A stretch of 64,000 nt of DNA from the NCBI GenBank assembly GCA_022822725.1, contig JAJEAN010000007.1:1375045-1439044 (forward strand), written 5' to 3'. Every line of letters starts with the position of its first letter. The first letter of the stretch is position 1. The notes below the pieces were generated by a model that searched no databases, was not told the origin of the DNA, and saw nothing but the letters and a program-made list of their open reading frames with translations. The position numbers and the translations under genes were made by a program. The stretch is from Candidatus Latescibacterota bacterium. Lineage in GTDB: Bacteria > JAAXHH01. Positions 48,493 through 60,800 of this stretch are shown here, one piece after another.

Positions 48493-48514
48493 GCGGACGG
48501 GTACGGTACCCGCC
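48491..48514 (+). terminator. Candidate hairpin after the second enolase-superfamily gene
   Basis: GGGTAC and GTACCC around one base (near-palindrome), extended by AGGC/GCCT with a bulge. A CCCTTTTG tract follows 13 bases later. It may attenuate or simply be a palindrome. Confidence 0.3.
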
Positions 48515-48548
48515 TGAACCACTTCACCCTTTTGAATATGGCGGAATC

Positions 48549-49325
48549 ATGTTAAAAGTCGACATACTTGAAGCGAACGAGATCGAACGCGCCGCCACGG
48601 TTTTCCACCGGGACGGCTTCGTCTGCGTGGCGAATCCCCTGGACGAGGAGCGGTTCGCCCTCATCCGTTCCGGTGCCGAACGCGTGATGGCGGAGCAGGA
48701 AGCCGAGTTCGGGCGCGACAAAATGAACCGGGGCTTCGCGCGCCACTCCTTCGGCAGTCAGTTGCACAACTGGGAATGGTGCGTCCTGATCGACCTGCCC
48801 ACCATTCTGCCGATCATAGACGCGATCTGGGGGAGCGACGACTATACCTGCACGGGCGCGGGCGGCGACTACTCCCTGCCCGGTGCGAAGATCCAGCACC
48901 TGCACTCCGACCGGAACGCCGACCTCTTCAACGATCCCCTGGGCCGGGTAACCCACCACGATGTCCCGGCGCCTTTCATCGTCATCAACTTCACCATGGT
49001 GGATTTCACCGTGGAGAACGGCGCCATCCGGTTCATTCCCGGCACCCACCGGTCCCGCGCGCCGATCCCCTCGCTGGAGGAGGAACCGGAGTGGATGCGC
49101 ACGAACCATCTCTGCGCGCCGGCGAATACGGCCATCATCCGCGACGTGCGATGCTGGCACGGGGGCACGGCGAATCACTCCGACATGAAGCGGCCCATGA
49201 CGAGCGTGGGCTACCATGCGCCGTGGCACCGGGCCGTCGAGGAGAAGTCTCTTCCGCGGGAACACTACGACCGGCTGTCCACCCGGGGCCAGCGGCTGTG
49301 CAGGCATATCGTGGCGGCGGGGTAG
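48549..49325 (+). CDS. Phytanoyl-CoA dioxygenase (PhyH) family protein
   Basis: A 258-residue Fe(II)/2-oxoglutarate oxygenase with a full facial triad: IQHLHSDRNADLF gives HxD (about H118/D120) and CWHGGTANHSDMKRP the distal His and the 2-oxoglutarate Arg. AATVFHRDGFVCVANPLDEE is the N-terminal helix region and NGAIRFIPGTH the central strand. No good Shine-Dalgarno is visible before ATG 48549. The large Big2/LRR lipoprotein starts four bases after its stop. Confidence 0.87.
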   Translation: MLKVDILEANEIERAATVFHRDGFVCVANPLDEERFALIRSGAERVMAEQEAEFGRDKMNRGFARHSFGSQLHNWEWCVLIDLPTILPIIDAIWGSDDYTCTGAGGDYSLPGAKIQHLHSDRNADLFNDPLGRVTHHDVPAPFIVINFTMVDFTVENGAIRFIPGTHRSRAPIPSLEEEPEWMRTNHLCAPANTAIIRDVRCWHGGTANHSDMKRPMTSVGYHAPWHRAVEEKSLPREHYDRLSTRGQRLCRHIVAAG

Positions 49326-49329
49326 ATCC

Positions 49330-52300
49330 TTGACTAAATCTGAAAGGGAACGCCGGAAACTAATCAATACACAACACGTGCTACGTCCCTCGACACCTGC
49401 GAACCGCCCGATAAAATACCCGCGCTTCTTTCCGGTCGTCCCCCGCCCGCTCCGCTTGCCCCTGCTCCTCTTGCCCTTGTTCCTCTTGCCCCTGCTCATT
49501 TCGGCAGGTTGCGGCGAGGAATCCAAACCGACCAGACCCGCCGATCCCGTACCCGTCCGGATGGTGATTTCACCGCCGTCCGGGCTACTCACCGGCACCG
49601 GCCAGATCCTGAGGTTGAACGCCACACTGTATGATGCGAACGGCAATACGCTGACCGGTATTGGTATCGCCTGGAGCAGCAGCAACTCCGCGGTGGCGTC
49701 CGTGAGCGATGACGGCGTGGTCGTTGCCCGCTCCGCAGGCACCGCACAGATCTCTGGAGTCTCGGGTAGCATAAGGACCAGCATCACGGTAACGGTGGCA
49801 CGCACACCGAGCCGGATCGTCGTGACGCCGGTATCGGCCCGGTTAACGGCGATGGGGGAAACGCTGAGGCTCGTGGCGGTTGTCCTGGACGCCGATGGCG
49901 CCGAGATTACGGACGCGCCGCGGAGTTGGCGCAGCGAACATCCGATGGTGGCTTCGGTAGACGATCAGGGTGTGGTGACGGCGCACATGAGTGGCGAAAC
50001 ACGTATCACGATTGCCTCGGGAGCACTGTCGGCCAGCGTTTCGGTGACCGTAGCACTGTCGGCAGACCGCATTCTGGTCACACCGGACGTCGTACACCTG
50101 ACTTCGATCGGAGAAACGGTCGAGCTCGCGGTGTCGGTACGCGATGCCAACGACGTGGAAATCACAGGCGCCGAACCGACCTGGACGAGTGAACATCCGG
50201 CCGTGGCCTCGGTGGACAACCGGGGCGTGGTGACGGCCCATATGCCCGGGACAACGCGTATTACCGCTACATTCGGTATGGCCACGTCGAGTGTATCCGT
50301 CACGGTCAGCGTAACCATTGCCGACCGTGAACCGCTCATCGACTTCTACCACGCTACGGACGGTCCGAACTGGCTGGACAATACCAACTGGCTCACCGAC
50401 GCCCCCCTGGAACAATGGTACGGCGTAGAAGTCGATTTGGCAGGAAACGTGGTGTCGATCTGGCTCAATGGCAACGGGTTGAAGGGCCATATCCCGGCCG
50501 TCCTTGGCAACCTGCCGCATCTCGAAGTACTGGGCCTGGTGGACAATGAACTGAGTGGCGAGATACCATCGGAACTGGGCAATCTCCGAGAGATGCGCCG
50601 CCTGCTGCTGCAGGTAAACCAGCTATCGGGCGCCATTCCTTCTTCGCTGGGTGACCTGACTAAACTAGACACTATGGATCTACATTTCAATCGACTGACC
50701 GGCGAGATTCCAACTACGTTCGGCCGGCTCGCGAACCTCGTTTACCTTCATCTTGGCAACAACTTCCTAAGCGGTACCATTCCGTCGTCCATCGGTCAAC
50801 TCGACAAGCTGGAAAGGATCTATCTTGGCCAGAACGGACTGGTGGGTGAAATCCCCGCGGAGGTAGGAGGACTGTCCAGTTTGATTGAAATCTGGTTAGA
50901 CGGGAACTCGCTAACCGGGGAAGTGCCCGAAGAACTGGGCAGCCTGGAACACCTGATCTCCCTGGATCTCAAGGACAACGCCGATATCCGAGGACCCTTG
51001 CCCCGGACGTTTCTCGAACGGGACATGGAATACCTGCAACTCTTCGGTACGCAGGTTTGTTTGCCCAGGGATCTGGCGTTTCGGGAGTGGCGCTTTTCGT
51101 TTCACAGAATATTCGTACTGGACTGCGAGGCAGGACCCGACCTGATCGCCCTGGAAAGCCTGTATTATGGCGTGGGTGGCCAAAACTGGACGAACAACGA
51201 TAACTGGTTGAGTGAGAAACCGATGGATCAATGGTTCGGCGTCTCGGCCGACACTACCGGAGGGGTCGTCGCCATCGAACTGCCCGGAAACGGACTGAGT
51301 GGCATGATTCCCATGGCCCTGGGGGGACTGTCCCGGCTGGAAAGACTCGATCTGGGCGAGAACAGCCTGACGGGCGGCATACCCGGCGAACTGGGTATGC
51401 TTGACCATCTGGATGAGTTGCGCCTGCACGACAATCCCGGTCTGGCCGGTACGCTGCCCGTCAGCCTTGTAGATCTCGATCTGTCCGTACTATGGCTGCA
51501 AGGCACGATGGTCTGCGCGCCGGCCGATCCGGCCGTTCGGACGTGGTTGCAGCGCATCGCCGACCGGCGGGTGTCCGATTGTGAGCCACCTCCTGACGAA
51601 CCGGACGACACTGAAGATCCGGGCGGCCCAGGCGATCCGGACGATCCGGGCGGTCCGGGCGGTCCGGGCGACTCAGGCGACTCAGGCGACCGGTCGGTGT
51701 TGGTTGCGCTGTATAACGCGACAGACGGCCCGAACTGGCGGCGCCAGGACAACTGGCTGAGCGACCTTCCCCTTTCTGACTGGGAGGGTGTCACCACCAA
51801 TTCGTCCGGGCGGGTCACCAGACTGGACCTCTACATTAACGATCTGGACGGGCACATCCCGGCTTCACTCGGCAGACTTGCCAGCCTGGAGAGACTGGAG
51901 CTGGAAAACAACTACCTCAGCGGCAGCATTCCATCTGCACTCGGCGATCTGTCCCGGCTCCAGCTGCTGAGTCTCGGCGACAACGACCTTACCGGTTCGA
52001 TACCCGTTTCGCTGGGCAACCTGACGAATCTTAAGTGGATGTACCTTTACGGCAATGACCTGGTCGGCGGTATTCCGTCATCGATCGGCCGGCTATCGAA
52101 CCTTCAGAGACTGGGCTTGAGCAATAACGATCTCGACGGCAGGATACCGTCCGATTTGGGCGACTTGACCAGGCTGTCGTGGCTGAATGTCCAGGACAAC
52201 GATCTCACGGGCGGGATCCCTCCGTCCATAGGAGGCATGTCCAGTCTCCAGGAACTGAACCTGAGCAGAAACGATCTGACGGGGGGCGTTCCGACGTCGC

Positions 52301-53256
52301 TGGGAAACCTGTCCGCCTTGAAAACACTGAATCTTGCAAACAACGACCTGGACGGCGGTCTGCCCTCGACTTTGGGCAACCTCTCGAACCTGGAAACGTT
52401 GCTTTTACGAAACAACTCCGGCCTTAGCGGTCCGCTGCCGCGTTCATTAACCAATACCAGTCTCCAGGTACTGAATGCAGACGGCACAGACCTCTGTGCG
52501 CCACAGGACGCACAGTTTCAGTCCTGGCTGGACGGCCTGAACAGCCGTTCAGTGGGTCTCTGTCCGCTGTCGGGGAATGACCGTGAAACCCTGGTGGCCT
52601 TATACAACGCCACGGACGGGCCCAACTGGAGATTTCAATCAAACTGGCTGAGCAACCGGCCGATAAACGAATGGGCCGGGGTCTCCGTAGACGGTGAGGG
52701 CCGCGTCAACGGTCTTCACCTACGCACCCAGGGCATGCGTGGCGATATACCTTCTTTGCTGGCAGACCTGTCGAATCTCCAGAACCTGTATCTTGCCGGT
52801 AACAACCTTACGGGTAGTATTCCGGCGGTGCTCGGGAATCTGGCCGGCCTGCGCGATCTGTATCTCGACCGAAACCAACTCAGCGGCAGCATCCCTTCGT
52901 CGCTGGGCCGACTCGAAAACCTGGCAGGTTTGAGTCTTAACGACAACATGATGACCGGGAGTATCCCCACGTCGCTCGGCGATCTCGACAACCTCGAGTG
53001 GTTGTGGCTCGAAAACAACCAGCTGAGCGGCGGCGTACCCGCTTCACTGGGCAGCCTGACAGCGCTGAAGGGACTATACCTTCAGAACAACGAGGCGATG
53101 TCCGGACCTCTCCCCGGCGCACTCACCGGCCTGACCAGTCTGAACTACCTGAGGCTGGATGGAACCGGACTGTGCGTGCCGAGGACCGACGCGTTCCAGT
53201 CCTGGCTCGATGGCATCGAAACCAAGCAGTTCGATTACTGTGTGGCGGGGAACTGA
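49330..53256 (+). CDS. Lipoprotein with three Big2 domains and four leucine-rich repeat blocks
   Basis: A 1308-residue surface lipoprotein. The most upstream plausible start is TTG 49330, four bases after the PhyH stop; GTG 49378 is an alternative. A hydrophobic segment ends in a lipobox LLISAGC (Cys61). Three Big2 Ig-like domains span about 75-332 (each with a VASV...GVVTA core). Four blocks of 24-residue plant/SDS22-type LRRs follow, each opened by a cap of the form ATDGPNW..NW...W.GV: at about 333, 603, 788 and 1083. Blocks 2 and 3 are joined by a Gly/Pro/Asp linker (about 752-787). LRR consensus is L..L.L..N.L.G.IP..LG.L. Likely function is adhesion or protein binding at the cell surface. 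Confidence 0.88.
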   Translation: MTKSERERRKLINTQHVLRPSTPANRPIKYPRFFPVVPRPLRLPLLLLPLFLLPLLISAGCGEESKPTRPADPVPVRMVISPPSGLLTGTGQILRLNATLYDANGNTLTGIGIAWSSSNSAVASVSDDGVVVARSAGTAQISGVSGSIRTSITVTVARTPSRIVVTPVSARLTAMGETLRLVAVVLDADGAEITDAPRSWRSEHPMVASVDDQGVVTAHMSGETRITIASGALSASVSVTVALSADRILVTPDVVHLTSIGETVELAVSVRDANDVEITGAEPTWTSEHPAVASVDNRGVVTAHMPGTTRITATFGMATSSVSVTVSVTIADREPLIDFYHATDGPNWLDNTNWLTDAPLEQWYGVEVDLAGNVVSIWLNGNGLKGHIPAVLGNLPHLEVLGLVDNELSGEIPSELGNLREMRRLLLQVNQLSGAIPSSLGDLTKLDTMDLHFNRLTGEIPTTFGRLANLVYLHLGNNFLSGTIPSSIGQLDKLERIYLGQNGLVGEIPAEVGGLSSLIEIWLDGNSLTGEVPEELGSLEHLISLDLKDNADIRGPLPRTFLERDMEYLQLFGTQVCLPRDLAFREWRFSFHRIFVLDCEAGPDLIALESLYYGVGGQNWTNNDNWLSEKPMDQWFGVSADTTGGVVAIELPGNGLSGMIPMALGGLSRLERLDLGENSLTGGIPGELGMLDHLDELRLHDNPGLAGTLPVSLVDLDLSVLWLQGTMVCAPADPAVRTWLQRIADRRVSDCEPPPDEPDDTEDPGGPGDPDDPGGPGGPGDSGDSGDRSVLVALYNATDGPNWRRQDNWLSDLPLSDWEGVTTNSSGRVTRLDLYINDLDGHIPASLGRLASLERLELENNYLSGSIPSALGDLSRLQLLSLGDNDLTGSIPVSLGNLTNLKWMYLYGNDLVGGIPSSIGRLSNLQRLGLSNNDLDGRIPSDLGDLTRLSWLNVQDNDLTGGIPPSIGGMSSLQELNLSRNDLTGGVPTSLGNLSALKTLNLANNDLDGGLPSTLGNLSNLETLLLRNNSGLSGPLPRSLTNTSLQVLNADGTDLCAPQDAQFQSWLDGLNSRSVGLCPLSGNDRETLVALYNATDGPNWRFQSNWLSNRPINEWAGVSVDGEGRVNGLHLRTQGMRGDIPSLLADLSNLQNLYLAGNNLTGSIPAVLGNLAGLRDLYLDRNQLSGSIPSSLGRLENLAGLSLNDNMMTGSIPTSLGDLDNLEWLWLENNQLSGGVPASLGSLTALKGLYLQNNEAMSGPLPGALTGLTSLNYLRLDGTGLCVPRTDAFQSWLDGIETKQFDYCVAGN

Positions 53257-53329
53257 GGATACGAACACGTCCCAGGCGGATACCTGCCCGGCCGTTCAAA
53301 TTCGGCGGTGGATTCTCTGCATATCTACG

Positions 53330-53357
53330 TTGCGATGCGGCCTGCGTATGTTATATT
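53330..53357 (+). promoter_or_regulatory. Promoter of the metallophosphatase-like gene
   Basis: -35 TTGCGA (53330-53335), 16-bp spacer, -10 TATATT (53352-53357). The following leader is made of a 17-bp repeat. Confidence 0.45.
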
Positions 53358-53360
53358 ACG

Positions 53361-53422
53361 CCGTCGACAAGATTGTGCCGTCGACATGAATGCGCCATCG
53401 ACATGATTGTGCCGTCGATTTT
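53361..53422 (+). repeat. 17-bp tandem repeat in the leader of the metallophosphatase-like gene
   Basis: Units GTGCCGTCGACATGAAT, GCGCCATCGACATGATT and GTGCCGTCGATTTTA follow each other, with a partial unit before (CGCCGTCGACAAGATT). Confidence 0.85.
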
Positions 53423-53459
53423 ATAGTGACCGCGTGGAAAAGTGCTTCAGGAATAACCT

Positions 53460-55952
53460 GTGTTTGTAAAATCCGTAATGTTGGCCGCTGAGGCAGCGTG
53501 GTGGGCCATGGTCGCATGTGTCGTTCTTGCTTCGACCACAGCCGATGCACAGGTTGCCGAACTTGCCGACGCCCGTGCCGTCCACCAAGCGGGCCCCCAG
53601 GCCAACACCCAGACCAACGTCCGGAACTCCGCCCGGGTTTCCGCCCGGGTTACCGAGCATCGGCTTTCCATTCTCCACACCAACGATTTGAGGGGCATTA
53701 TCTATTCCGAGGACGGGTTCGACGATGCGGATCCGGCCGGGAACCAGGGACCGGTTGGCCTGGCCAACCGAGGAGGCCTGGCCGACCGAGGAGGTCTGGC
53801 TAACCGAGGAGGCCTGGCCGTGCTCGCGTCGATGATCCGTGCCCATGAAAGCGCCGGCGGCGATTCGATCCTGGTCCTTGACGGCGGGAACGCCATGGGC
53901 GCAACGCCCGCATGCGACGTGGATGGCTGCCGCACGTTGTTTCAACTCATGGACATGGCGGGATACGATGCGATGGCGGTGGGCGAGCACGAGTTCACCT
54001 ACGGGCTCGACACGCTCGCAACCCGCGCAAGCCAGGCGTATTTCACCGTGTTGGGCGCCAACCTGGAATCTGGCGACAGGGCCGCTGGGAACGGCGGCAC
54101 GGTGGATGTGACTGGCGACACGGTCGATGTGACTGGCGACACGGTCGATGACATCATCGCACCGTTCCTGCTGACCGAAAGAAGCGGATTGCAGATCGCT
54201 GTCCTGGGGCTGGTCTCGTCCCGGATGGCGGGCAACCTTTCATCCATGGACCCCGCGGCCCTGGATATCAAAGATCCGCGCGAGACGCTCGAATCGCTCC
54301 TGGCCGGTCCCGCGGGCCGCGCCGACGTACGCATCGCACTGGTCAACATGAGCATGGACGAGGCAAGGGACCTCGCGCTGGCCTTTCCCCAGGTACATTT
54401 GTTCATCGCGGGAGGCACGGCTGCCGGTACCGAACCGCGCCCGGTGGAACATGTGGTCCGGTTCGCCGATGGCAGATACCTGGTTACCACGCCGGGACGG
54501 AGTACCCATCTGGGAAGGCTCGAAATCACCTTTCGCCGGGAAGGGGACGTGACGGCCATTTCCAGTCTGAGTCCGGTCCTGGTACCCGCCGGTTCGGCCT
54601 TTCTGCCCGACCTCGCGACCGCGCCCGATCCGTCCGATTCAACTCGTCCCGCGGTAACGGTTGCCGCCACGTCGCCCACGCAGCTCGATCCCGCGGTATC
54701 GGTAGTCGTCGCCACGCATATGGAAACCGTGCGCGAGGTCTATGACGTCCAAATCGGCCTGACCAGGGAACCCATCGAGGATACCGGGTCCTGGATCGCC
54801 GACCTGGCGCGCACGAAACTGGTGGCCGATGTTGCCGCGATCGACCGGCACGCCCTGCGGCCGATGCCTTTGGACGGGGAGGTCCGCTTGCGTTCGGTAA
54901 CGCGGTTGGTGCGCGACGACGACGTTCTCGTCCGTATAGCCGTATCGGGACGGCAATTGCGGGCATGGGCCGGCAGGCTGCCCGGAGAACACGACGTGGT
55001 CTTCGCGGGGTACGATGCGGCATCCGGTACGGTCGACGGTCAGCCGCTGAATCAGGCCAGGACATACGTGGTGGCCGTCCCGATGATCCTGGCGGACCAG
55101 AACCTGATCCGGGGAAACGGGGTTTTTCTCCATACGGACGATCCAGGCGCACGCATCGGGCTCAGGGAAATGGTGACGGCCCACGTACGGGCGCACGTCA
55201 GCGTAGACCGGTGGGAGGGCATCCGGCGCGGGCCGCGAAGCGTGATGGAGGGCGGCACGCGGCTCAACGGCTCCCTGTCGCAGACGACACTGGAAGGACC
55301 TGCCGACCAGTACAGCCGCGATCCGTTCCTGAGCGGCGAGGAATCGCTGGCCTGGCTCGTTCGCGTCGAACACCTTTCAACCCGGTACACCCCGGTAGGA
55401 TCGTTTTCGGCCCAGTTGAGGACAGGATACGGCAGATTGAACAACAACGGAAACACGCGGGAGGCGGTGGACCGGATCGACGGCGAGCTGCTTTTTTCGC
55501 TTCCAAACGCGCAACTGTCCCAGTTCGTCGGCATGGACGTCAACACGGTATGGACGGGTGGCGGAGGACAGAAGCACCCCGTCGTGCTTCGGTTCAAGGG
55601 AGGTCTCCAGACTGAACTGGGTTCCCGGGCGAACATGCGTATCGGCCTGGCCCTGGAAAGAGACCGGATCACCGCGGTAAACGTCGTGGGCGTCGAGGTG
55701 GCGCCCGAGTACCGGACTACCCTGCGGGAAGGCAATACACTGGAATCGCAGGCCCGGGTTTTCTGGGGCACCGGACAGCGCCAGACGATGTCCGTACAAC
55801 ATTACAACCACCTGCGTTTCCGCCTGCTGGACGATCTATCCGCCACGCTCGACGCGAATATGTTCCTCCACCGGGACAGCGACGTCGACCGGGCCGCCGT
55901 CAAGTTCGAGCTGCAGGTCGGCCTGGGGTACGACTGGCGTTATTACCGGTAA
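53460..55952 (+). CDS. UshA/5'-nucleotidase-like protein with lost metal ligands and a C-terminal beta-rich region
   Basis: An 830-residue exported protein. GTG 53460 follows AGGA at 8 bases; a signal peptide ends near TTADAQ (about 31). Residues 65 to about 350 keep the metallophosphatase outline, but the expected ligands are replaced: LHTNDLRG (DxH to DxR, about 75), VLDGGNAMG (GD to GN), GEHEFTYG (GNHE to GEHE, about 174), ALVNMSM (SHxG lost) and IAGGTAAG (GHTH lost). Residues about 410-600 match the C-terminal 5'-nucleotidase domain. The final 210 residues alternate hydrophobic and polar positions in repeated strands and end in YDWRYYR, resembling an outer-membrane barrel. It is probably a binding protein, not an enzyme (inference). 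Confidence 0.8.
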   Translation: MFVKSVMLAAEAAWWAMVACVVLASTTADAQVAELADARAVHQAGPQANTQTNVRNSARVSARVTEHRLSILHTNDLRGIIYSEDGFDDADPAGNQGPVGLANRGGLADRGGLANRGGLAVLASMIRAHESAGGDSILVLDGGNAMGATPACDVDGCRTLFQLMDMAGYDAMAVGEHEFTYGLDTLATRASQAYFTVLGANLESGDRAAGNGGTVDVTGDTVDVTGDTVDDIIAPFLLTERSGLQIAVLGLVSSRMAGNLSSMDPAALDIKDPRETLESLLAGPAGRADVRIALVNMSMDEARDLALAFPQVHLFIAGGTAAGTEPRPVEHVVRFADGRYLVTTPGRSTHLGRLEITFRREGDVTAISSLSPVLVPAGSAFLPDLATAPDPSDSTRPAVTVAATSPTQLDPAVSVVVATHMETVREVYDVQIGLTREPIEDTGSWIADLARTKLVADVAAIDRHALRPMPLDGEVRLRSVTRLVRDDDVLVRIAVSGRQLRAWAGRLPGEHDVVFAGYDAASGTVDGQPLNQARTYVVAVPMILADQNLIRGNGVFLHTDDPGARIGLREMVTAHVRAHVSVDRWEGIRRGPRSVMEGGTRLNGSLSQTTLEGPADQYSRDPFLSGEESLAWLVRVEHLSTRYTPVGSFSAQLRTGYGRLNNNGNTREAVDRIDGELLFSLPNAQLSQFVGMDVNTVWTGGGGQKHPVVLRFKGGLQTELGSRANMRIGLALERDRITAVNVVGVEVAPEYRTTLREGNTLESQARVFWGTGQRQTMSVQHYNHLRFRLLDDLSATLDANMFLHRDSDVDRAAVKFELQVGLGYDWRYYR
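53760..53823 (+). repeat. 24-bp in-frame tandem repeat (NRGGLADRGGLANRGGLA)
   Basis: Three 24-bp units add an Asn/Arg/Gly-rich loop to the metallophosphatase-like protein. A second in-frame 24-bp duplication at 54104-54151 repeats VDVTGDT. Confidence 0.88.
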
Positions 55953-55957
55953 GCGGA

Positions 55958-56149
55958 AGCGCCGCCCGTCCGCATACAGTCATCCGGCCCGCCGAAGCGC
56001 CAACTTGTCTTCATTCAGCCACCTGGCCGCCGAAACGCCAACTTACCGTATACAGTCAACCGGCCCGCCGAAACGCCAACTTGTCCGTTTACAGTCATCT
56101 GGCCTCGGAAGATTCGGCTGGTCCCCGGTCAGCCACCTGACCCCCTGCA
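55958..56149. repeat. Imperfect ~39-bp tandem repeat after the metallophosphatase-like gene
   Basis: Four to five degenerate units containing CGCCGAAACGCCAACTT and CAGTCA.CCGGCC. This is the first part of the 937-bp gap 55953-56889. Confidence 0.82.
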
Positions 56150-56313
56150 CCAATTACTATTTTAGCACATATTAGTAATAGATTAGTAGTGGCGGTTGTT
56201 AGACGACAGTGACCGTTTCCATTGACTACAACTACTAAATTGGAAAAACGGAGCAGGAAGTGGGTCTTCACTGCTCCATAGGATCTGAAGGCGAGGCTTG
56301 TGGAGGAAGATGG

Positions 56314-56562
56314 TTAGGGTTGCTTCAAGTTCCAACTTATGCATCCATAATCTGAATCTTGTATATCTTGATTTTGAAGTCCGACGTAAGTTCCTCCACT
56401 TGTGCATATACGACTAACATTCGAATGCTCAACCAGCCTGATATCATGTTTAGGTAATACCGACTCGAAATCACTATAGTGGGGGCTTTGACGGCCTAAC
56501 AAGGTTTCAAGGATGTTTCGTGTCTTAGTCAACCATTTAGGTATAATCCATCCGTATCGCGA
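56314..56562 (-). pseudogene. Possible gene remnant in an AT-richer island
   Basis: An open stretch of about 82 codons on the minus strand between two stops, reading WLTKTRNILETLLGRQSP and then SDFESVLPKH. That helix pattern recalls a small N-terminal domain found in some nucleotide-binding or abortive-infection-type proteins. The stretch has no good start or ribosome-binding site and ends after about 40 more residues without a recognisable domain. The surrounding 56150-56600 has visibly lower GC than the rest of the window. It may be a foreign fragment or chance. From 56570 to 56889 I see nothing. Confidence 0.25.
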
Positions 56563-56889
56563 TCATCAGGGAATTTGGGTTGTACCGTGACAAGAGCATC
56601 CGACATGATGGGGGTTCGCCGAGCGACATTGCCGAATCTTTTTGAATAGCTCTGCGTCACGTTCTCCAGCGATGGCGCTATGCTTCGAGATGGCCTTCGG
56701 CGTTCGCATGGACCAGTTGCTCAGGAAGCAATCATGGTACAGTTCTGAACGGATGCGTGTCCGGCCGGATGAGACAAAAAGGCACCGTGCGTTACGAATC
56801 AGGCCGAAGATCCGCTAGCTTTTCTTAATTGATCATTAGACGATGCGCGCGTCGTGTTCGGACTTTTTCCCGGCCGCTCCGCCCTCTTC

Positions 56890-57735
56890 CTACCGCTCCC
56901 ACGTCCTCTTCTTGTCATCCGCGCACGTGATCGTTAGCGCGGGTCCCAGCTTGTCGACACTCAGGCGCAGACTGTCGCCGTCCTGGACCGGACTGAGGGC
57001 ATAGTGGTGCGTGCCGGTGGAGACGACGTCGCCGGGCTCGAGAGTGACCACGGCGGTCACTTCGGCCAGGAGTTCGGGGATGTGCCGGGCCATTTCGCCG
57101 GTGGAGAAGTCGTGCTTGAGGTTTCCGTTGATCCACATCTTCGCGGGCAGGTCGTTGGCGTCGCCCACCTCGTCGGCCGTGACCAGCGCGGGACCCATCG
57201 GGCCGAAAGTGTGCCAGCTCTTGCCGAGGAAGAAGCCGCCGGGCAGACCGCGGGCCGAAACGTCGATGAACTGGGTGTAGCCGAAGATGTGGTCCAGGGC
57301 ATCGTCCGCACTGAGTTTGCTGGCACGCCTGCCGATCACGATGGCGAGTTCGGGCTCGAAGTGGAAGACCGAGGCGTCCGTGTCGGGCAGTTCCACGACC
57401 GCGTCCTGGCCCATGACGGACGTGTTGGACTTCAGGAAGGCGTTAAAGGTCTCCTTGGTGGGATGATCAGGCTCGATGTAATTCCCCGCCAGGCAAAGCA
57501 ATTGCCCCGGGCGTGGCAATGGGGCACGCAGGCTGACCGCGGAAAGCGGCGTTCCGGCCTGTCCCCGTGCGGCCTCGGCGATACGGGCGCCGTAGGTGTC
57601 CCAGCCCGTGATTACCGCTTCAATCTGAGCCTGGGGGCTGGTCGCCCCGGTATCCGACACAGCAGAAGAAACGTCGATGATCGCGTCGTTCTCGATGACG
57701 CCCAGGGTGTAATCGTTGTAGAATGCCAGTTTCAC
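56890..57735 (-). CDS. Fumarylacetoacetate hydrolase (FAH) family protein
   Basis: A 281-residue FAH-fold enzyme. GTG 57735 is preceded by AGGAGG at 6 bases; upstream in-frame sequence derives from a repeat. PLPRPGQLLCLAGNY opens the fold, FHFEPELAIVIGRRA supplies metal-binding Glu (about 119-121), FGYTQFIDVSARG and GKSWHTFGPMGP are family landmarks, and GDVVSTGTHH is the late active-site loop. The family hydrolyses C-C bonds of acylpyruvates or dehydrates 2-keto-3-deoxy acids and ureidoglycolate-like substrates. With mannonate dehydratase and the aldolase in this window, a sugar-acid pathway is plausible. Its own promoter is visible. Confidence 0.88.
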   Translation of the reverse strand: MKLAFYNDYTLGVIENDAIIDVSSAVSDTGATSPQAQIEAVITGWDTYGARIAEAARGQAGTPLSAVSLRAPLPRPGQLLCLAGNYIEPDHPTKETFNAFLKSNTSVMGQDAVVELPDTDASVFHFEPELAIVIGRRASKLSADDALDHIFGYTQFIDVSARGLPGGFFLGKSWHTFGPMGPALVTADEVGDANDLPAKMWINGNLKHDFSTGEMARHIPELLAEVTAVVTLEPGDVVSTGTHHYALSPVQDGDSLRLSVDKLGPALTITCADDKKRTWER

Positions 57736-57774
57736 GTAAGCCTCCTGTTTAAGGTTGTTGCCACAACCTGAATG

Positions 57775-57848
57775 AACAAGCGTTTGGTCTTGAAATAGTT
57801 GGTCTTGAAATGGTTGGTCTCGAAATGGACGGTCCTGAATTGGACGGT
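57775..57848 (-). repeat. ~17-bp tandem repeat forming the leader of the FAH gene
   Basis: On the minus strand, imperfect units of the type CCATTTCAAGACCAA repeat about four times between the promoter and the ribosome-binding site. Confidence 0.82.
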
Positions 57849-57850
57849 TT

Positions 57851-57878
57851 AATATAACGGGCCGCGGTAGCCCGTCAA
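57851..57878 (-). promoter_or_regulatory. Promoter of the FAH gene, with an overlapping palindrome
   Basis: Minus strand: -35 TTGACG (57878-57873), 16-bp spacer, -10 TATATT (57856-57851). The spacer holds ACGGGC/GCCCGT (57857-57875), which could be an operator or the terminator of the TonB receptor gene that ends at 57884. Confidence 0.5.
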
Positions 57879-57883
57879 CTTCA

Positions 57884-60800
57884 TTAAAACGTATACCGCA
57901 CGCCCATCTGCACCTGCCAACGGGACGAGAGGTTGGTGGTCTGGAACACGTCCTCGCGGTCGACTCTTCCGTCTTCGTTGGCGTCCCGGACCCGGAGGTC
58001 CAGATCCGGCCTGCCCTGTTCGTCATACCCGTCGAAATTGAACAGGCCGGCGGCGTCGAACCGCACAAAGCGGCGCTGACCCCAGTCGCTGTTGATCAGG
58101 TTGGCCAGGTTCAGCACGTCCAGCGTCAATTCGAAGTGCTGGTTCCGTACGGAGGGCAACTGCTGGATCAGGCGCAGGTCCAGCCGGTTCCGCCACGGCG
58201 ACCGGGTCGCGTTGCGCCGGACGATGCCGCCCCGGGCCGCGCCCAGTGTGGGGTCGGAATCAATGAAGGCGTCGATCGCCCGCCACTCGTCGTCGGTGAC
58301 CTCCGCGCTCACGTCGCTCCGGTTTGCCGGGACGTAGGCCAGGTCGTTGCCCCGGATGCCGTCTCCATTCACGTCGTCGGCATACATGTAGCTGTACGGA
58401 TCTCCCGCGCTGCCTTCGTAGAAGACGGAGACCGTCGTTGCGAGACCCTGCCCGACCTCGAACTTCCAGGACCCACTGGCCAGGACCCGGTGCCGGACCT
58501 CGAAATCGGACGTGGCGACCGTCTCGCCGTTCGGGTCGTCGGTCTCGTTGTACTGCCAGTTGGAGATGGCGCGGCTCGACCGCCCGCTGTTGATGTCCTC
58601 GGCGTCCTGGAACACGTAGGCGACGCTGCCGAAAAGTCCGGGCAGAAACGTCGTGTTTTGTCCCTTGCGCAGCCGCAGCGTCAGGTTGAACTGGCGCCCC
58701 CTGTCCGTGTTCTCCAGGAGGATGACGTTGGTGAAATCCCCGCTGACCTTCCTGCCGCCGTAGTCGGGCCGTCCGTCCGGGGTCGTGCTGGTCGGCCTGC
58801 CGGCGTCCCCGATGTTGAGGTTGCGGAACCGGACGTCGTCCAGGTTCCGGGCCAGCAGGACTTCCACGGTGCCGACCAGGTCGAGGGGCAGCCTGCGGTC
58901 GAGGGCGAGGTTGGTGCGGAAGACCCGGGGCAGCCGAAACGCAGGATCGATGACGTTGACCTCCGTGGTCTGCGGCGCAGACAGACTCGCGTCCAGCGGC
59001 AGCGGTTGCGCGAAGGGGTCGGCCACGAACGCGGGGACGTCCTGGTCCCGGAAGGTCGCTAGATCGATGCGGGTGAAGTCTACTCCGGTGTTGCTGTAGG
59101 CGTTGGAAAGCCAGACGGCCGGCGGCAGTCCCGCGAAGACGCCGGCACCGCCGCGGATCTGCGTCCCGCGGTCCCCTCCGGCGTCGAAATTGAACCCGAA
59201 GCGGGGAGACCAGAGCACCTGCCCGCCCGGAGTCCGGTCCGTCCGGTGGCCGGTGAACTGGCGTGCGAAGCGGTCGTTGGCCAGAGGCTCATCCGGCAGG
59301 ACCGGCACGTCGGCCCGCAGTCCGAAGTTCAGGCTGAGCCTCGGGCTGACTTTCCAGTGGTCCTGGGCGTAGAATCCCAGCTGCACGTAGTCCCATGCGG
59401 CACGCGGCTGTTCGTCGCCAGGCACGCGGGACCGGCTCAGGAGGTAGCGGGTGGGGGTGCCCTGTTCGAAAGCCTCGATACCGTCGAACTCGTAGGCCCC
59501 GTAGTAGTCCTGGATGAACAGGTTGTCGAAGGAGACGAACTCGTTGTGCGTGCCGATCGTTATGGTGTGGTCCGCCCTGAACAGGTGCAGGTCGTTGGTG
59601 AACTCGAAGGTGTCCTGGTCCAGCGTATTGGCCTGGGAGAACCGTTCCACACCGAGCCGGACCTCGCCAAGGAACGCGCCGCCCGGCTCCTCGAGGTCAA
59701 TACTGACCTGGGGGAAGGAAGCGGAAAGCGGCGACCGCTTGTCCCGCACGCGGCTGTAGGATATCCGCGCTTCATTGGCCAGGCTGCCGGAGAAGGTGCT
59801 GTTGAGCTGCACGACCGACGATTGAGTGACGTTGTCGCGCCTGAACTGGTTGCTGGTAAGCGTGAAAAGAGTGCGTCCCCGGCTCAGTCCGTCGTCCAGG
59901 TCGCCGTTTACCAGGTTGTGGCGCAGGGTGAGACGGTGCCCGGGCGACAGGTTGACGTCCATCCGCGCGAAGATCTTTTCGTTCCGCGTATCCGTTGAGA
60001 AAGGGTCGTATCCGCCGGCGTCGTACCCGTACCGGTTTCGGGCGATGTCCACGATCCGCTGCAGATCGGCCGAGGCCGCCCCGAAGCGGATGGGCTGGTC
60101 CGAATCCGACGGTCCCGCGCTCGACGGGCTCGAGCGGCGCCGCAGTTCGCCGTTGACGAAGAAGAACGCCCGGTTCCTGGCCACGGGGCCGCCGAGCCGG
60201 AAACCAAGCTGGTAGTCGGTGAAATCCCCGAATTCGTCGCCGTCCAGGTCGCCCACCAGGGATTCGTTCCGGCCGAACCAGTACAGCGAACCCTGCCAGC
60301 GGTTCGTCCCGCTGCGTGTTACCGCGTTGATGAGTCCACCCGCGAAACCGCCGGAGCGCACGTCGAAGGGTGCCACCTGTACCTGGAATTCCTCGATGGC
60401 GTCCAGGCTGATCGGCTGGGCGCCTACCTGGCCCGTGGGCAGCCCCTCGCCCGTCAACCCGAAGGCGTCGTTCAGCACCGCGCCGTCCACCTGGAAGTTG
60501 TTCAGGCGGTTGTTCTTGCCCGCGATGCTCTGTCCGCCCGCCTTCGACGCCGCCTCGGGCGCCAGCCGCGTATAGTCCTGTATGCTCCGTGCGATCGAGG
60601 GCAGCCGGGCGATCTCGATCGCCGAAACGTGGGTCTCGGTACCGGTGTTCGACGCGTTCAGCACCTCGTCCCGGTGGGCCGTAACGGTGATTTCCCCAGC
60701 CTCGATAACGTCACGATTCAGTCGGAAATCCGCGCGCAGACTCTGGCCCATGGTCAGCAGAATATCCTGCCGGACGGCGGTGCGATACCCGATGTAGCTG

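Follow-up and report, generated by a model that had tools for sequence, protein, structure and literature searches.

What becomes of a 5'-nucleotidase that has lost nearly all of its metal ligands and runs on into a long all-β region is the question raised by one gene in the window, the 64,000-nucleotide stretch of DNA analyzed here as a whole. Its product, referred to below as the window protein, is probably a pseudo-5'-nucleotidase anchored in the outer membrane, in which a two-domain nucleotidase of the UshA type would be fused to a 12-strand barrel of the DUF481/DUF3078 type.

A UshA-like fold and its metal site

The features of the gene are collected in Table 1. The order of domains is that of COG0737, namely a signal peptide (by eye), a metallophosphatase domain, and then 5_nucleotid_C. 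Residues 67–298 match UshA (NCBIfam, E 1.7e-17), E. coli UshA is the PDB sequence match (E about 1.5e-9), and residues 442–503 match 5_nucleotid_C (Pfam PF02872, E 7.9e-5, 29.2 bits, above the cut-off), with neighboring matches in frame. The outline of UshA and its C-terminal nucleotidase domain, recognized in the sequence-only reading, are thus retained.

Table 1. Features of the fusion gene and their positions in the window
Feature	Position	Strand	Basis
Complete CDS, 830 aa, GTG start, TAA stop	53460..55952	+	Start agrees with aligned orthologues
Sec-type signal peptide, about residues 1–30, cleavage near ADA/Q	53460..53549	+	Read by eye; hydrophobic N terminus common to orthologues
UshA-like metallophosphatase core, residues 65–375, metal site erased	53652..54584	+	NCBIfam UshA, PDB UshA, dN/dS 0.31
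D76-L77-R78: D41 ligand retained, Arg in place of the H43 ligand	53685..53693	+	Alignments
18-bp in-frame tandem repeat (GLANRG), loop, 3.5 copies	53757-53819	+	
N144 at bridging ligand D84	53889..53891	+	Asn in 9/9 genus orthologues
E176-H177: Glu in place of ligand N116 (mostly Gly among the orthologues); catalytic His retained	53985..53990	+	Alignment
21-bp in-frame tandem repeat (TVDVTGD), loop, 3.9 copies	54070-54150	+	
N296 at ligand H217	54345..54347	+	Asn in 9/9 genus orthologues
G319-T320-A321 at ligands H252 and H/Q254	54414..54422	+	Alignments
5'-Nucleotidase C-terminal (base-binding) domain, residues 411–585	54690..55214	+	Pfam PF02872 E 7.9e-5, alignment, dN/dS 0.30
Predicted 12-strand outer-membrane β-barrel, residues 600–826, DUF481/DUF3078 type	55257..55937	+	hhalign, AF2, Foldseek, strand alternation, dN/dS 0.16

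The metal ligands of UshA, which we take to be D41, H43, D84, N116, H217, H252, and Q254 (His or Gln at position 254), were located in two MAFFT alignments that included true UshA-type enzymes. In both alignments the window protein keeps only one of the seven, D76, the other positions being occupied by R78, N144, E176, N296, G319, and A321. The replacements read from the sequence alone (DxH to DxR, GD to GN, GNHE to GEHE, and the loss of SH and GHTH) hold in both alignments. The same six ligands are lost in all nine orthologues from the genus, all of which have Gly in the H252 column, and homologues with intact ligands at shifted positions were looked for and not found, so that the designation as a pseudo-enzyme stands. 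In UshA the substrate base is sandwiched between aromatic residues of the C-terminal domain (PMC10454023). The base-stacking aromatics and the GGDGY motif are lost in the genus, LPF being aligned with VRD, and FxAxGGDGY with MILADQNLI.

Residual catalysis, by the remaining Asp and His or by other chemistry, would agree with the invariance of D76 among the genus orthologues and with the catalytic His (H177) being kept in eight of the nine. Against it stand the loss of six ligands throughout the nine, the replacement of H177 as well (by Leu) in G001, and the lost base pocket, and we regard it as very improbable. The partner Asp of the catalytic His is Thr in the window protein.

Median dN/dS values (Nei–Gojobori) among the nine genus orthologues are 0.31 for the metallophosphatase core, 0.30 for the C-terminal nucleotidase domain, and 0.16 for the barrel, and the reading frame is intact in all nine. 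Purifying selection acts on every folded domain in the genus. A decaying gene, with an enzyme domain that no longer has a function, could account for the accelerated evolution along the stem of the genus clade (branch length 1.05) and for the repeat insertions in the loops of the window protein. It is hardly credible in view of the low dN/dS of both enzyme domains, the nine intact frames, and the fixed substitutions at the former ligand sites.

The inserted repeats had been described as 24-bp units; they are in frame and lie in loops, as stated, but the units are of 18 and 21 bp. In the orthologues, the alignment shows the same loops either without repeats or with other insertions in their place. 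Two further tandem repeats are found in the low-GC intergenic spacers, one with a 38-bp unit on one side of the gene (55974-56097) and one with a 17-bp unit on the other (53360-53418).

The predicted outer-membrane barrel and its orientation

The C-terminal all-β region extends over about 230 residues, close to the ~210 residues of alternating strands noticed in the sequence. A profile built from the last 240 residues, which included stand-alone homologues from G003 and G009, matched a DUF3078-type barrel alignment (hhalign probability 98.7, E 2.5e-16), most members of which score as DUF3078 above the cut-off. The match of the window protein to DUF481 is weak (Pfam, residues 728–826, E 0.025), with scores of 15.1 and 18.1 bits that lie below the Pfam gathering value of 21.1 bits. 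DUF481 (TCDB 1.B.75) is listed as a putative β-barrel family whose members have 277 ± 41 aa and 12 strands (PMC4827864).

Structure prediction, which had been proposed as a check, gave a full-length AF2 model from seven sequences with a pLDDT of 34, which was set aside, and a model of the barrel alone with 12 strands and low confidence (pLDDT 51, pTM 0.42). The best PDB match of the latter in Foldseek is OmpG (E 3.3e-3), and the remaining matches are almost entirely other outer-membrane barrels; since the model is of low confidence, these matches are taken as supportive. Hydrophobic alternation, computed with strand limits set by hand, is 30.5, compared with 14.4 ± 3.0 in within-strand shuffles, none of 2000 of which was as high. 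No solved relative was found when the barrel profile was searched against PDB sequences. From the hhalign, AF2, Foldseek, and alternation results, the C-terminal domain is strongly predicted to form an outer-membrane barrel with 12 strands, of the DUF481/DUF3078 type, in keeping with the barrel suggested in the sequence-only reading. Two members of the genus that lack the fusion encode a stand-alone barrel homologue of 290 aa (L016, 1384-2256; L017, 1381-2253), so the module is separable.

The turns between strands 2–3, 8–9, and 10–11 comprise 2–5 residues and are nearly fixed, the loops 1–2, 3–4, and 11–12 are longer and variable, and the turns 4–5 and 6–7 are short in the window protein and variable in some members. 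Because the barrel would be even-stranded, with the short, near-invariant turns on the N-terminal side and the longer, variable loops opposite, the topology would favor a periplasmic location, and the dead domain, attached to the barrel as a pseudoenzyme, is most likely to be found there. It may serve as a non-catalytic ligand-binding module or as a gating or scaffold module.

Neighbors of the fusion and possible partners

In the window, an LRR/Big2 gene with a lipobox lies immediately upstream of the fusion on the same strand, as had been noticed, and an LRR/Big2 lipoprotein gene is found upstream in five of the seven syntenic genus loci. G002 and G010 keep the fusion with two small genes in the position of the LRR gene, and an LRR fragment is kept in G011, where the fusion is absent. 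The LRR gene is thus separable, the lipoprotein was rejected as an obligate partner, and the proposal that both proteins form a surface recognition unit is not borne out.

In type Va autotransporters, a globular domain at the N terminus precedes a C-terminal barrel of 12 strands. An autotransporter-like or otherwise surface-displayed binder, with the nucleotidase-like domain passing through or around the barrel to reach host or environmental ligands, would fit this order of domains, the adjoining lipoprotein gene, and the hypervariable, repeat-bearing loops. We consider it rather unlikely, since no autotransporter barrel domain was matched in the Pfam scan, the barrel is related to the stand-alone DUF481/DUF3078 barrels, strand 1 is common to the stand-alone homologues with a linker of only about 20 residues preceding it, and the LRR gene can be absent. 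Surface exposure is on balance unsupported, and the surface-binding protein envisaged earlier would give way to the periplasmic placement that an even-stranded barrel with short N-terminal-side turns appears to favor.

In G003, G009, and G011 (L145, L146, and L147, a variable locus syntenic to window positions 48500-57900), the flanking PhyH/MR_MLE and FAA-hydrolase/OMP genes are kept and the fusion is absent, its place being taken in one or another of them by restriction-modification-like, protein kinase, IrrE-type (Peptidase_M78), and HTH genes. In G004 the fusion is present in a different genomic context. The fusion gene is therefore accessory, and its site is variable. A defense role was considered on account of the variable locus, and PADLOC gave no match for the fusion protein itself.

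In G013, and in several genomes that belong to one genus of a second phylum (that of G159), the fusion is directly followed by a TLC-type (ATP/ADP translocase) gene. TLC-like genes in this position include L105 5002-8322 (G013) and L112 5799-7094 (G415), and the one in G013 additionally encodes HEAT repeats and a cNMP-binding domain. Outer-membrane capture of nucleotides, in which the dead domain would bind them uncleaved and pass them on, either to the barrel or to a TLC-type translocase of the inner membrane, is suggested by these neighbors and by the fusions of the TLC-bearing second-phylum genus, which keep an aromatic at the F429 position and the FLAxGGDGY motif. It is nonetheless doubtful: no TLC gene was found in the window's whole genus, whose members also lack both base-stacking aromatics and GGDGY, and other fusions have different neighbors. 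The single adjacency in G013 could be due to chance, because TLC-like genes are numerous there. The TLC adjacency is accordingly treated as a lead rather than a result.

Relatives, graded erosion, and comparison with known families

The gene is present in 9 of the 12 genomes of the genus, and each of the five genera examined from the phylum has a full-length fusion, as do many genomes of the second phylum, where loci L081–L099 were read. The records of the orthologues are labeled as 'Candidatus Latescibacterota' and 'Gemmatimonadetes' MAGs. Wherever these positions can be read, the fusions have lost H43 and the ligand at 254, and H252 is lost in all readable fusions except L013. D84, N116, and H217 are kept in most fusions of the second phylum and partly lost elsewhere. 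Some second-phylum fusions retain four of the seven ligands and might bind metal, so that inactivity is firm only for the window's genus and similar cases. The metal site would thus have been dismantled stepwise, H43, H252, and the 254 ligand presumably being lost first, and D84, N116, H217, and the base-stacking aromatics later, in the window's genus.

Among 31 fusions, the H252 column is Gly in 94% (His in five of five true UshA homologues), N431 is replaced by Asp in 94%, and D155 is found in 100%, which suggests a shared new constraint. The graded erosion, taken together with these conserved fusion-specific changes, argues against random decay.

In the tree of fusions, the window's genus groups with second-phylum sequences (100/100) on the long stem mentioned above, and not with relatives from its own order; the clade of L011, L012, and L014 likewise mixes both phyla. 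This nesting and the variable locus suggest that the copy in the genus was acquired by horizontal transfer, an old duplication with losses being a possible alternative history. A search of viral contigs found no relatives. A much more eroded nucleotidase–barrel fusion is present in G159 (L075); the gene just upstream of it is a Wzi-like one for capsule assembly (L120). The metal site is also erased in the UshA-like proteins of L024 (G037) and L025 (G042), in which a barrel was not seen; L024 has Asn at nearly all ligand positions, followed by a LysM-like stretch.

With UshA (COG0737, PF00149 + PF02872; NF007109) the window protein shares a signal peptide, the order of the two domains, sequence similarity at the level of the fold, the first of the Asp ligands, and the catalytic His, whereas it has lost six of the seven ligands and the base-stacking pair and has the additional barrel; it scores 63.4 bits against the NF007109 UshA equivalog, for which the cut-off is 600 bits. 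An altered metal site is also found in the UshA-like families NF041198 and NF049981, listed among selenoproteins (PMC13188914, PMC2398784), but these have a CxU-type motif, a C-terminal CxxCH in the copies read, and no barrel, while the window protein has neither Sec nor CxU. Its score against NF041198 is 61.6 bits (cut-off 275 bits), and the CGU/C motif of that family is absent from the alignment. A separate UshA-like family (L054–L057, in G012–G015) appears to correspond to NF041198; its C-x-U motif contains an in-frame TGA, and heme-type CxxCH motifs are found at the C terminus.

The barrel shares its size, 12 predicted strands, and profile–profile similarity with the DUF481 (TCDB 1.B.75) and DUF3078 barrels, although the members read are stand-alone barrels and the window barrel alone falls below the Pfam cut-offs. 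The LPXTG ecto-5'-nucleotidases (AdsA, Nt5e; PMC10454023) have the same UshA-type pair of domains and a C-terminal extension that tethers them to the envelope. They are, however, enzymes of Gram-positives with a cell-wall anchor, whereas the anchor of the window protein is a β-barrel and its metal site is gone. The parts are therefore known; their combination and the stepwise erosion were not found described in the literature searched.

For the window's genus, automatic annotation of this gene as a 5'-nucleotidase would mislead, and no other 5_nucleotid_C protein was found in the window's own genome (G000, 3.8 Mb). We can speculate, with little confidence, that periplasmic 5'-nucleotidases of two phyla have become the capture or gating domain of an outer-membrane channel, coupled in some cases to TLC, and would thus represent a new uptake receptor. 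Fusion to the predicted barrel would fix the place of a UshA-type domain in the envelope. Since relatives of one architecture keep differing numbers of metal ligands, the successive steps that lead from an enzyme to a non-enzyme can be read, and may be tested, one by one.
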